A stretch of DNA of 64,000 nucleotides from an uncultured Alphaproteobacteria bacterium. Lineage in GTDB: Bacteria; Pseudomonadota; Alphaproteobacteria; Micavibrionales; CSBR16-224. Where the stretch lies: positions 186,001 through 250,000 of the forward strand of contig CATLPD010000003.1 of NCBI GenBank assembly GCA_950054485.1. Reading direction: 5' to 3'. Below the pieces are notes generated by a model. It searched no databases. It worked only from the letters and a program-made list of their open reading frames with translations, and had not been told where the DNA came from. Below, in pieces: positions 31,101 to 57,127 of the stretch. The position numbers and the translations under genes are program-made. Every line of letters starts with the position of its first letter. The stretch's first letter is position 1.

Positions 31101-31146
31101 TTGACATAATACACCCCCTTTGTTATATTATGCCAAATAAATTTGG
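31101..31146 (+). promoter_or_regulatory. Strong promoter and palindrome of the first envelope-family locus
   Basis: TTGACA (31101-31106), a 17-nt spacer and TATATT (31124-31129) give near-consensus elements. Just downstream, CCAAATAAATTTGG (31133-31146) is a perfect palindrome covering the expected start point, a possible operator. The second locus of the family has a matching TTGACATAAT promoter at 54192. Confidence 0.7.
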
Positions 31147-31160
31147 TATAAGGATTCGTT

Positions 31161-31736
31161 ATGTCTGTAAAACGTATTTTCGCAAAAGTTGCGCGTTCAC
31201 CTGTTTTTCTTGCGCCGGCATGTCTGGCTAGTGCTGTTGCTATTCCCATTTCTGTCAATATGGCTGTAAATCACGATTTAAGCACGGAAGCTGTTGTTCA
31301 GGATGAAAGAACAGAAGAATATCGTGAAAGAATGAGCCATTTAAGGCATGATGCAAAGTGGGAATTTCAACAAGAAGATCATATGGAGCTAGCCAAGGAC
31401 TTGGTCCTTGATGAAAGCATCAATGAGCGCGAGTTTAAAGAGTTCGCATCATATTTCCCTGCTAGAGACAATCACGATCTATTGCCACGTCCATCGCGCG
31501 CTGATTCGCTTGATGAATGCCGTTTGGAATATGGCGATGCCGGCATTGCAGCGAATGACACTGCAATTGCGGCGAATATCATCAGTTGTATGAGAAATAA
31601 TAATCTTTTGTCGTCATGGTTGACCATTGTCCTCAGCATCGTAAGTGCGGCCGGTTTTGCCGGCGTTGCGTCAATGGCGTCATCTTCACCAAAATTAAAG
31701 CAATGGGCGACTGAACCGCCAAAAAAAGGAAACTGA
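31161..31736 (+). CDS. Envelope-family protein D (two membrane segments, C-R-L...C-M)
   Basis: This 191-residue protein has an N-terminal membrane segment (about 15-36), a helical extracytoplasmic part, and a second membrane segment (about 152-174) followed by a short basic tail ending KKGN. Before the second segment are two cysteines in LDECRLEYG and ISCM. The same plan, including a NEREF-type helix before the cysteines, occurs in the next gene and in three genes at 54.2-56.5 kb. The family is unknown to me. Seven A at 31721-31727, in phase for a -1 shift, lie just before the stop and connect to the next gene's frame. Confidence 0.7.
   Translation: MSVKRIFAKVARSPVFLAPACLASAVAIPISVNMAVNHDLSTEAVVQDERTEEYRERMSHLRHDAKWEFQQEDHMELAKDLVLDESINEREFKEFASYFPARDNHDLLPRPSRADSLDECRLEYGDAGIAANDTAIAANIISCMRNNNLLSSWLTIVLSIVSAAGFAGVASMASSSPKLKQWATEPPKKGN
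31721..31727 (+). promoter_or_regulatory. A_AAA_AAA slippery heptamer at the end of gene D
   Basis: In the zero frame the codons are CCA AAA AAA GGA AAC TGA. The heptamer A_AAA_AAA is therefore in the right phase for -1 slippage, and the -1 frame is open from 31715 and runs into gene E. It could be a programmed site or simply a Lys-rich tail. Confidence 0.4.
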
Positions 31737-31759: not shown

Positions 31760-32491
31760 ATGCGACAGGATTTAAACGAAGTGCGTGCATTGGCGGATCA
31801 ATTTACAGATGCTAGCAATGCATATAATCAGCACCGTGCCAGCTCCGATACACAAACGGAAAAAATTTATTTCGCGAATGCCAATGGCGATGTGATTGCT
31901 TTTGATGAAGGCGACACACGTATTGAAATGCTGGATATGTCATCTTTAACACAACTTAGTAAAATTGTGTCTGGCGATGAAACGAAAGCAACACAACTGG
32001 TGGATGTCCAGACAGGGCAAACATATGCCATTCCTGAATTGGAACAGCGTCAAAATCTGAAACAGGCAATGGAAGATGCAGAGGCCGTATATGAGCAGGC
32101 AGCAGATGATTTCCGTGTCGAACTTGTTTTAAATCCGAATGTTAACGAAGTGACCTATAGCCAGTTCCGCGATTTAATGCCGGGCCTGCCGTTTTATCAG
32201 AATAATGATTTGCGTGTGAATTTCTGGCCCGATGGCGACGGCGCATCCCTGAATGAATGCCGCGTCAAATACGGTAATAATGTGGCCGGTGAACGCGCTG
32301 ATGTTGCCGCAGCGGTTGCGGATTGTATGAAAGAAAATGATGTCAGCAGTTTCTGGGCCTTGGTCGGTTCGATTGCCTTGTCACTGTTCCTTGGAATTGG
32401 CTCGGCAATTGGTATGAATGAATCTTATACCTTGCAAGATTGGTCCCGATTGCCGAAACCGAAAAAACTTCCAAAACCGGACCCAAATTAA
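31760..32491 (+). CDS. Envelope-family protein E, lacking the N-terminal segment
   Basis: The 243-residue product shares the C-terminal half of the family: a N-x-V-N-E-V-x-Y helix, LNECRVKYG and ADCM cysteines, a membrane segment (about 195-218) and a tail ending PKPDPN. Unlike its relatives it has no N-terminal membrane segment or signal, so by itself its cysteine region would not reach the periplasm. No ribosome site precedes ATG 31760; the nearest AGGA is 30 nt upstream inside gene D. Possible readings are a -1 frameshift fusion with gene D, a decayed gene, or an assembly error in the A-run. Confidence 0.6.
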   Translation: MRQDLNEVRALADQFTDASNAYNQHRASSDTQTEKIYFANANGDVIAFDEGDTRIEMLDMSSLTQLSKIVSGDETKATQLVDVQTGQTYAIPELEQRQNLKQAMEDAEAVYEQAADDFRVELVLNPNVNEVTYSQFRDLMPGLPFYQNNDLRVNFWPDGDGASLNECRVKYGNNVAGERADVAAAVADCMKENDVSSFWALVGSIALSLFLGIGSAIGMNESYTLQDWSRLPKPKKLPKPDPN

Positions 32492-54191: not shown

Positions 54192-54220
54192 TTGACATAA
54201 TTATTTGGCTGTTCTAGATT
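54192..54220 (+). promoter_or_regulatory. Promoter of the second envelope-family locus
   Basis: TTGACA (54192-54197), a 17-nt spacer and TAGATT (54215-54220). It begins TTGACATAAT, like the promoter of the first locus at 31101, so the two loci may be expressed alike. Confidence 0.65.
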
Positions 54221-54242: not shown

Positions 54243-55016
54243 ATGAATCGTAGCACTAAAAAAATCATTTCAAGCCTTGTAGGCCTTTCAATGGCGGCCT
54301 CTGTACCTGCGGGTGCTTATTGGGCTTTTGACGAAGGCTTGTTGGGAGCGGATCATTCTGATCGTACAGCATCCCAGGCGCTTGTAAACCTAGACAAGGC
54401 TGAGTTGCAAGCACAGGTGCAACAAGCTGCAGACCTTGAACAAGCACGGATCATATATGAAGCGGAGTGGAATAAGGCCATTGAGGATGCGTTCGCAAAA
54501 GGTATGAACCGAGAGCAAGCATTCGACGCAGCGGCACCCTATCAATCATTGCTTAATCAGTCAAAAGATGCGCTTGACCAACTAACGGCAGATTTTAACC
54601 GGAATGTCTTTGGCAATATGACCTTATCTGAAAATTATTTGCAAAATGTGACATATGATTTTCGTCAGGCAGCGCCAAATAGCAGCGTGAATGAAGATCT
54701 TGCGCGTTATATCGACGATTGTCAGGTTTCGTTTGTTGCTGAAAGATCAGAAGATCGTAGGTATAAACGTCCCCAACAAGTGCTCGATTGTGCGGTGGAT
54801 AAAGAAGCAAATACGGTTCCCAGACATCTTAACGATGTCCTTGGAAACGCGGCGGCACCTTTGTTTGTCTTTTTTCTAATTGGCAGTAGCATCCTTACTC
54901 TTGTGGCTTTTCCCTTTGGGTATTCGATAAGTCAAGGAGGATTAAAAAAACTTGAAGATCGCCAAGCCAGAAAAAAAGCCGAAAAAAAATCAAAACAAAA
55001 GCTGAAGAGTAACTAG
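54243..55016 (+). CDS. Envelope-family protein A
   Basis: The 257-residue protein has an N-terminal membrane segment (about 8-29), then F-DEG-LL-GAD, a motif shared with B and C. A long helical, Gln/Ala-rich region leads to NMTLSENYLQNV, then IDDCQV and LDCAV, a second membrane segment (about 205-228), and a very basic tail ending KSN. This predicts a periplasmic domain with two Cys between two membrane anchors. It is the first of three tandem paralogs. The family is unrecognised. Confidence 0.75.
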   Translation: MNRSTKKIISSLVGLSMAASVPAGAYWAFDEGLLGADHSDRTASQALVNLDKAELQAQVQQAADLEQARIIYEAEWNKAIEDAFAKGMNREQAFDAAAPYQSLLNQSKDALDQLTADFNRNVFGNMTLSENYLQNVTYDFRQAAPNSSVNEDLARYIDDCQVSFVAERSEDRRYKRPQQVLDCAVDKEANTVPRHLNDVLGNAAAPLFVFFLIGSSILTLVAFPFGYSISQGGLKKLEDRQARKKAEKKSKQKLKSN

Positions 55017-55035
55017 ATATATAGGGATCAGGAAT

Positions 55036-55779
55036 ATGCCGATTTTTAAAACTTCTAAAAAATATGCCAAAACGATGACGGCTTTGACGGGTGTATTCTC
55101 GATGATTGCTATGCCGTACGTCGCCCATCAGGCAATTGATGAAGGTATTTACGGTGCTGATCAGACTGAATTATCCGAAACCGATGCCAACCGCGACCAT
55201 GAATATCTGCAAAACCGCATGGATGAATTATCATCTGCGACAACGGAATTAAACACACTGAAAGCAGCCCAAGGTGATTTATATCGTGAAGGGCGTGATA
55301 ATGCAGCCCCTTTAAGCGAAGATCAGTATCGCGAAAATGCTCTTGATATCGAGAAAGCTGAAGATGATATCCGTGAATTAAAGCAGGATATCTTCAACAA
55401 TCTTTATACCAACCGCACAATGTCAGAGGAGTCATTGGAAGGCCTAATGGAGGCATACCGCGTATTATATGGCGCGGCTGTTGAATATTCAGGCGAGATT
55501 CACGAAGATAACGCCCGTAATATCCGCGAATGTCAGGTTCGCAACGATCTGACAGGCACATTTGCATCACCTGATAGAAGAATGGCGGAACGTATCGAAA
55601 GCTGCGCCGATTGGAATGCAAGTTCCCGCATGTTCAGCATCATGGCCGCCTTAGTAACTTTTTTTGCGGGTATGGGGCTATTTCTGATAAAGGCCGACAA
55701 CCTGCATAACCGCTTTGAAAACCAACATTTACGTGCGGTCGAGCGTAAAGAGCGCAGCAGACCGCCAAAACCAAACTAA
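55036..55779 (+). CDS. Envelope-family protein B
   Basis: At 247 residues, it shares with C the N-terminal KKYAKTMTALTGVF, then I-DEG-IY-GAD, and a coiled-coil-like Glu/Lys region. Next are D-I-F-x-N-x-Y-x-NRTMSEESL, GEIHEDNARNIRECQV and IESCA. A second membrane segment (about 197-218) leads to a basic tail ending PPKPN. It starts 19 nt after gene A with an AGGA ribosome site. The likeness to C is high and to A moderate, so B and C look like a recent duplication. Confidence 0.78.
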   Translation: MPIFKTSKKYAKTMTALTGVFSMIAMPYVAHQAIDEGIYGADQTELSETDANRDHEYLQNRMDELSSATTELNTLKAAQGDLYREGRDNAAPLSEDQYRENALDIEKAEDDIRELKQDIFNNLYTNRTMSEESLEGLMEAYRVLYGAAVEYSGEIHEDNARNIRECQVRNDLTGTFASPDRRMAERIESCADWNASSRMFSIMAALVTFFAGMGLFLIKADNLHNRFENQHLRAVERKERSRPPKPN

Positions 55780-55796
55780 TGTAACAGGAATTTGAA

Positions 55797-56543
55797 ATGC
55801 CGATCATAAAAGATAGAAAGAAATATGCGAAAACCATGACGGCTCTGACAGGCGTATTTGCGATGGTTGTTGCGCCTACGGCCTTATACTTTACCATTGA
55901 TGAGGGTGTCTCGGGCGCTGATAATATAACTTTATCAGATGCGGCTGCTAAGGAAGATCGCGCATATATCGAACAACGCATGGAAGATTTACGTGGCCTT
56001 AACAATAATGTTGTCAACCTGACCGCCCAGCAGGGCACGCTTTATCGTCAGGATCGTACAGGCGGTAATGATGCCTATGCAGAAAATTCACAAGCGATAT
56101 ATGATACAAATAAGCAGATCGAGACTATAAAACAGGATATTTTTGAAAATATTTATTCAAACCGCAGTCTTTCTGAAAGTGACCTGCAGTCCATAATGCA
56201 TCAATATCGTCTGGAATTTAAAGAGGACGTACCATTACGTGGAGAAATTCAGGAAGATTTCGCACGCCATATCCGTAGTTGTCAGGTCGAATACAACATG
56301 GACATAGGCTTTGTAGAGCCAACTGAATACAACGCTGAAAAAATCGAACGTTGTGCCAGCGATATAGAAGAATACAATGAAACCCCTCATTGGGGCGGTT
56401 TTACAGCCGTAACTTCAAGTTTAATAGCGCTTTTTATGTTCGTTATGGCGAATGGCGATATGCATCGTGACTTTCTAAATCGCCATGATCGTCTGACACG
56501 GCGAAAGCAAGATGCTAAGAAAAACAAAACCAAACCGAACTGA
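55797..56543 (+). CDS. Envelope-family protein C
   Basis: The 248-residue protein has the same order as B: KKYAKTMTALTGVF at the N-terminal membrane segment, I-DEG-VS-GAD, DIFENIYSNRSLSESDL, GEIQEDFARHIRSCQV, IERCA, a membrane segment (about 198-220) and a tail ending KTKPN. It starts 17 nt after gene B with AGGA upstream. The two Cys are placed as in the other members, so a structural disulfide is plausible. Confidence 0.78.
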   Translation: MPIIKDRKKYAKTMTALTGVFAMVVAPTALYFTIDEGVSGADNITLSDAAAKEDRAYIEQRMEDLRGLNNNVVNLTAQQGTLYRQDRTGGNDAYAENSQAIYDTNKQIETIKQDIFENIYSNRSLSESDLQSIMHQYRLEFKEDVPLRGEIQEDFARHIRSCQVEYNMDIGFVEPTEYNAEKIERCASDIEEYNETPHWGGFTAVTSSLIALFMFVMANGDMHRDFLNRHDRLTRRKQDAKKNKTKPN

Positions 56544-56614: not shown

Positions 56615-57127
56615 GTGATCAAAATCGGTTTTTACAGTATTATTATTTCAGCACTTGCCGTGCAACTTACGGGGTGTGCATCTTTAATCGACAGTGCAAC
56701 GCAGGACGTTGAATTTGTTACGCCGGGCGTTATCGGGGCAGATTGCCGTGCTGAAAACAAGAAATATTCCTATAATATTTATACACCTGATATCGTAACT
56801 TTAGAGCGATCATACTACCCGCTGACAATCACATGTAAAGCGCCTGGCTATGAAACTGAAATTGTTCAAATGCCAACAGAGATAAACGAAACGACAGCAT
56901 TTAATATTGTAAATGGTGTTATTCCCGGTATGGCATACGATGCTGGCAGTCGTGCATTAATGGAATATCCCGACCGTATCGAAATTTACATGACCCCGAT
57001 CGCGGTCGAGGACGAGACAATTGTGCCTTTGTACGAACCGGCAGATGTGCCTCAGTATATTCCGCCGCCTGTACCCTATCAAACCGAGACGACCGTACAG
57101 GAAGTCATGACAGGCACAAAAAAATAA
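56615..57127 (+). CDS. Lipoprotein of unknown function
   Basis: The 170-residue protein has a lipobox LTGC (C21) and should be lipid-anchored in the envelope. The mature part has CRAENKKYSYN, and LTITCKAPGYETEIVQMP is reminiscent of a PEGA-like or beta-sandwich domain. The tail is Pro-rich (QYIPPPVPYQ). It starts with GTG 56615 after AGGGGGA. It may belong with the preceding three-gene operon (72-nt gap), although a separate promoter cannot be excluded. Confidence 0.75.
   Translation: MIKIGFYSIIISALAVQLTGCASLIDSATQDVEFVTPGVIGADCRAENKKYSYNIYTPDIVTLERSYYPLTITCKAPGYETEIVQMPTEINETTAFNIVNGVIPGMAYDAGSRALMEYPDRIEIYMTPIAVEDETIVPLYEPADVPQYIPPPVPYQTETTVQEVMTGTKK

Follow-up and report, generated by a model that had tools for sequence, protein, structure and literature searches.

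A multicopy family of two-anchor helical envelope proteins in relatives of Micavibrio, with a C-terminal residue that is nearly uniform within each genome

Results

The window, that is, the whole stretch of 64,000 nucleotides analysed here, belongs to the genome that we will refer to as G000, and was compared with G001 to G006, six further genomes from its bacterial family (Micavibrionales). It carries three tandem genes (A, B and C) and a second pair (D and E), which are listed in Table 1 together with their promoters and with several diagnostic codons of C. A preliminary description had taken A, B and C for tandem paralogs, and they proved to be so: their ORFs are intact and their homology is above chance, C recovering B at E=4.7e-49 (40% identity) and A at 1.8e-11 (27%) when used as a query against its own genome. 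The motifs that had been quoted for the three proteins (DEG-x2-GAD, N-x-x-(L/M)-S-E-x-x-L and C-Q-V...C-A) are all present, as are the second membrane segment and the basic tail ending in Asn. Two membrane segments (TM1 and TM2) enclose the ectodomain of A, C and D by hydropathy, that of B via its alignment to C, and that of C also in its AlphaFold model; the positive-inside rule predicts a cytosolic location for the N-terminus and the tail. The neighbours of the array are the housekeeping genes bipA and recG, and the gene following bipA is not conserved among the relatives. Directly 3' of C (window positions 56615-57127) lies a gene for a putative lipoprotein of 170 aa, for which Pfam gave no match.

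Table 1. Positions of the family genes, promoters and selected codons in the window, and helices of the model of C
Feature	Position in window (genome position)	Strand	Description
D promoter	31101..31129 (G000:C3:217101-217129)	+	TTGACATAATACACCCCCTTTGTTATATT
Gene D	31161..31736	+	191 aa; short; TM1, Cys pair and TM2 present; last residue Asn
Gene E	31760..32491	+	243 aa; member without TM1, with Cys pair and TM2; last residue Asn
A-B-C array promoter	54192..54220 (G000:C3:240192-240220)	+	TTGACATAA-type -35 and -10 (TTGACATAATTATTTGGCTGTTCTAGATT)
Gene A	54243..55016	+	257 aa; TM1, helical ectodomain (Cys160, Cys183), TM2, basic tail; last residue Asn
Gene B	55036..55779	+	247 aa; plan as in A; last residue Asn
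Gene C	55797..56543	+	248 aa; plan as in A; last residue Asn; AlphaFold model
Glu127 codon of C	56175..56177	+	near-invariant Glu of the L-S-E helix, 134/135 family members
Cys162 codon of C	56280..56282	+	first Cys of the all-or-none pair
Cys186 codon of C	56352..56354	+	second Cys of the all-or-none pair
Terminal Asn248 codon of C	56538..56540	+	Asn is the last residue in 12/12 copies of G000
Helices in the model of C			residues 3-38, 48-86, 91-121, 127-141, 153-165, 177-195, 200-218, 220-242

Genes D and E, which the preliminary description had added to the same family, joined A-C once a profile of the relatives was used; their membership stands, with two departures from the plan of A-C, as D lacks the DEG-x2-GAD motif and E the first membrane segment. 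The ORF of E starts 23 bases past the stop codon of D and has no clear ribosome site; upstream of it, the frame stays open as far as an A7 run (31721-31727) that sits in frame as A AAA AAA. The end of D reads ...ccA AAA AAA gga aac tga, and E lies in the -1 frame, which has no stop between the A7 run and E. E is possibly a 5'-truncated copy, or else a continuation of D through -1 slippage at the A7 run.

The strong promoters that were said to be shared by the copies are found, as the TTGACATAA type, ahead of A and of D; B and C, situated behind A, have none of their own. Among family genes with upstream space, the best promoter-like site contains TTGACATA in 16/27, vs 2/104 for other genes. 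The corresponding promoter class, TTGACATAA-N-TAnnnT, amounts to 79 sites in G000 and 49 in G004 (the reversed pattern to 4 and 0, respectively), an enrichment of ~20-fold over the reversed control in G000. A regulon specific for the family was discarded, as the class occurs genome-wide (the 79 sites mentioned), and 30 sampled sites are mostly ahead of genes looking lineage-specific. One of the genes with this promoter class, L196 (G004:C1:91 kb), encodes 171 aa with two membrane segments and a basic RRRKPQKPVRGL tail, and is possibly a short family relative. Two others, L203 and L209 (G000:C1:254 kb and 369 kb), are related to each other, have a common start (HPVWGVKNIPDPDWSDLKWW and HPIWEIEGIPEPTQEDREWW) and look like ankyrin-type repeat proteins.

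The five copies in two loci counted at the outset are an undercount, since 12 copies, spread over five loci, are present in G000: A-C, D-E, two trios (one adjoining uvrB at C3:103 kb, the other at C1:128 kb) and a lone copy at C1:377 kb. An iterated profile was needed because single-protein queries matched nothing outside G000, as was the case for C alone when searched against the same bacterial family and against a collection of genome contigs; the profile of A-C and that of the relatives match at E=2.2e-9. The first profile gave 30 copies in G004 (on one contig), 31 in G002, 37 in G005, 15 in G003 and 9 in G006, and a better profile at least eight in G001, these numbers being lower bounds, or possibly including contamination, for the metagenome bins that make up most of the compared genomes. 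The copies of the relatives occur as single genes and as arrays of two to six. A model restricted to the ectodomain (TM1, TM2 and tail removed) recovers 200/204 ORFs of the full model, with the best reversed decoy at 0.0026 among 1279 ORFs, and thus the tail did not select the matches.

Weak relatives keeping two membrane segments and, in part, an I-S-E motif exist in f3, a second family of the order. Four of these distant relatives (L099, L101, L102 and L104) vary in their last residue, and most of their tails are shorter than those of the main family. No convincing copies were found in the genomes of f4, the family that apparently includes Micavibrio itself, nor was there any convincing match beyond the order among 385 genomes of the class and 398 of the phylum (~780, both samples including G000 and partly overlapping). 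Two partial matches outside the order in the class sample (E 2e-5 and 4e-5) were rejected, as they lie inside, or antisense to, unrelated proteins. Viral contigs and phage records yielded no relatives of the family. The absence of a named family for these proteins, already suspected, agrees with the scans of 60 members against Pfam and NCBIfam, of seven members against PADLOC and of the profile against PDB sequences, none of which gave a convincing match; the fold searches returned no match at E<=0.001, and no anti-phage defence profile of PADLOC matched any of the seven members. By sequence comparison, A-E are members of a large, previously unnamed multicopy family, apparently confined to relatives of Micavibrio, which we will refer to as the “LSE two-anchor family” and which takes up to ~37 genes in genomes of 2-2.7 Mb.

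AlphaFold models were obtained for C (from 12 sequences, mean pLDDT 72.7) and for a relative in G002 (from 7 sequences, mean pLDDT 70.4), which represent subfamilies ~17% identical, and their common all-helical plan bears out the earlier suggestion of a helical fold. Confidence is moderate and, with seven sequences common to both alignments, the two models are partly dependent on each other. The order of helices is the same in both: TM1, hairpin, L-S-E helix, L-x-E-(C/A)-R region, third helix, TM2 and tail. The long antiparallel hairpin reaches a pLDDT of ~90, and the tails are of low confidence. Across the 135 aligned members, Glu127 of the L-S-E helix is kept in 134, and other frequent positions are Asp42, Leu65, Ser126, Leu159, Glu161 and a Pro of the tail. 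Both Cys are present in 48 of these sequences, neither in 86 and a single one in 1. This all-or-none behaviour, holding in 134/135 sequences, makes a disulfide likely where the pair is present, in line with the disulfide-bonded ectodomain of the preliminary description. Loss of the disulfide machinery was rejected as the cause of the Cys-free sets, given that all seven genomes have DsbB.

The last residue of the proteins follows a rule that varies among the genomes, Asn ending the 12 copies of G000 and His all the complete copies of G002 (28/28), G003 (13/13) and G004 (31/31), while in G005 all 32 end in Tyr, Trp or Phe. His is also the end of 11/14 copies of G006, with three exceptions, and G001 is looser (four Leu, two Asn, one Ala and one Val). 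Two copies of G006 (L145 and L146), with the ends RFKHGN and RFKHGC, run two residues past the FKH end typical of relatives, and another one (L153) ends in LPTNC, its nearest paralogs in G006 ending in LPTSH. As a control, other ORFs of the same loci end in Asn in 1/59 cases (G000) and in His in 2/119 (G004). Identity between the paralogs is mostly <20%, and the copies differ in their tails and in their final and stop codons.

A tree was built with the tail left out and the Cys masked; it is a quick tree with long branches, on which independent switches were counted on starred branches only. The terminal residue switched in 10/10 independent G004/G005 pairs (sign test p=0.002), and in 7/7 of those between G006 and G005; the Cys pair switched in 7-8 of the 10 G004/G005 pairs, and in none of them in the opposite direction. 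A scan of all columns for G004 vs G005 placed the largest shifts at Cys186, Cys162 and the last residue (0.87-0.90), the next column reaching 0.67. Within a genome, the terminal residue and the Cys pair are nearly uniform, and on the tree both have switched convergently. Gene conversion was considered as the cause of the uniform ends and rejected: the genomes are interleaved in the tree, and the variation among copies in the tail and in the last and stop codons shows that homogenised gene ends are not responsible.

Between G002 and G004, two species of one genus, the dN/dS of 24 one-to-one ortholog pairs ranges from 0.04 to 0.22 (median 0.10), and that of the neighbour genes is 0.066. Judged by these ratios, the family genes evolve somewhat faster than their neighbours, yet are clearly under purifying selection. 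The adaptive function that had been suggested from fast divergence is thus not borne out: these are stable genes, and the purifying selection acting on them argues against an arms race.

Discussion

The observations above could be accommodated by a family of specialised inner-membrane adaptors with one common cytosolic partner that reads their C-terminus, a reading to which we give an even chance. Each protein would start with a short, basic segment in the cytosol and cross the membrane at TM1 into an all-helical periplasmic domain, made up of a long antiparallel hairpin and three further helices (the L-S-E helix, the L-x-E-(C/A)-R helix and another short one); behind TM2, a tail of ~25 residues, basic and rich in Pro, would lie in the cytosol. 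The paralogs would act as specialised adaptors or anchors whose differing ectodomains presumably engage different envelope clients, and one common cytosolic or membrane partner, such as a docking or assembly factor, would bind the C-terminal residue of every one of them. An alteration in the pocket of this partner would then force the same switch in all the paralogs, leaving one type of terminal residue per genome. We infer both the common reader and the adaptor role; one partner reading all C-termini is what is expected when the same residue has changed in all paralogs with no trace of gene conversion. The more specific version, in which each species has a single cytosolic or membrane-embedded reader for the last residue of its 10-37 divergent adaptors, and reader and clients have been co-switched several times (among Asn, His and aromatic ends), is put forward tentatively, with somewhat less than an even chance of being right. 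The concerted switch of the Cys pair falls outside what the common reader explains.

Several other explanations must be weighed against this one. The paralogs could form mixed oligomers or arrays in which each C-terminus packs into the pocket of a neighbouring paralog, with no separate reader; many similar copies with strong promoters and a long helical hairpin would suit such assemblies, and a family-wide concerted change would follow if all subunits touch one another. However, the scan of G004 and G005 shows no further column, such as that of a pocket, switching as fully as the Cys pair and the last residue, and the tail is predicted to be cytosolic, where the remaining protein offers only short segments, so that we consider mixed assemblies unlikely. 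C-terminal residues are among the known determinants of bacterial proteases, and the last residue of the family is far more constrained than the remaining tail; it might therefore be a stability or processing signal, the protease or peptidase of each species sparing or trimming given ends. Other proteins of the same genomes nevertheless lack that residue, and there is little resemblance, as protease rules go, between Asn, His and aromatic ends, which leaves a signal of this kind quite unlikely.

The order includes Micavibrio, and 10-37 paralogs with divergent ectodomains in tandem arrays might bring to mind the prey- or kin-recognition receptors of a Micavibrio-like predator, diversifying under selection. 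The low median dN/dS of the 24 ortholog pairs from two species contradicts such diversification, and f4, apparently the family of Micavibrio itself, has no convincing copies; recognition receptors thus seem improbable to us. Finally, the uniform ends could reflect shared ancestry only, through one recent ancestor per genome or gene conversion, as might be thought from the 12 copies of G000, largely in their own tandem clades, and from the eight of G001, which form one clade. But the copies of G003-G006 are interleaved in well-supported clades, contradicting genome-specific descent there; the terminal residue switches together in all ten contrasts despite this interleaving, and neither tails nor codons have been homogenised. 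Of the explanations considered, common ancestry alone is the one we find hardest to credit, and very improbable.

If the common reader is real, the family would follow a previously undescribed, species-specific code by which helical inner-membrane proteins are recognised at their C-terminus. The terminal residue rule offers a direct and testable handle on it, as it involves one amino acid, has natural swap variants between species and leads to the expectation of a shared partner.

Some known systems resemble the LSE family in part. Chemoreceptors (TarH/4HB_MCP) also consist of TM1, a periplasmic helical domain and TM2, with many paralogs per genome, and some of them have a common C-terminal tether motif; the TarH profile matched 1/60 members (E=0.0018). 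Unlike chemoreceptors, the LSE family has no HAMP or signalling domain, and its tail is only ~25 residues long. The Rz-like inner-membrane spanin (PHROG phrog_312) shares the N-terminal anchor and the long periplasmic coiled coil, and its profile matches A at E=7e-5 over residues 16-117 (TM1 and hairpin), the sole match among the seven members scanned, probably as coiled coils do. Spanins, however, lack TM2 and are located in phage lysis cassettes, whereas the LSE proteins have two anchors and A-B-C lies beside housekeeping genes, outside a phage lysis context. The plan of the Wzz polysaccharide co-polymerases (TM1, a periplasmic helical hairpin, TM2 and a short cytosolic end) is similar too, with two membrane segments around a helical hairpin and a short cytosolic end; the Wzz domain was absent from the Pfam and NCBIfam scans of 60 members and, unlike Wzz, the LSE family shows no beta strands in its models and has a far higher copy number.

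The closest known logic would be, by analogy, that of the outer-membrane beta-barrel proteins which, according to PMC3869937 (citing Robert et al., 2006), bear a species-specific C-terminal signature read by BamA/Omp85. Both cases join many divergent proteins under one C-terminal residue rule that varies by species, with a single shared reader being proposed for the LSE family. In contrast with the clients of BamA as described there, the LSE proteins would be helical inner-membrane proteins (both models are all-helical and free of strands) with a tail predicted to be cytosolic, ends that include Asn and His, and a reader that is so far putative.
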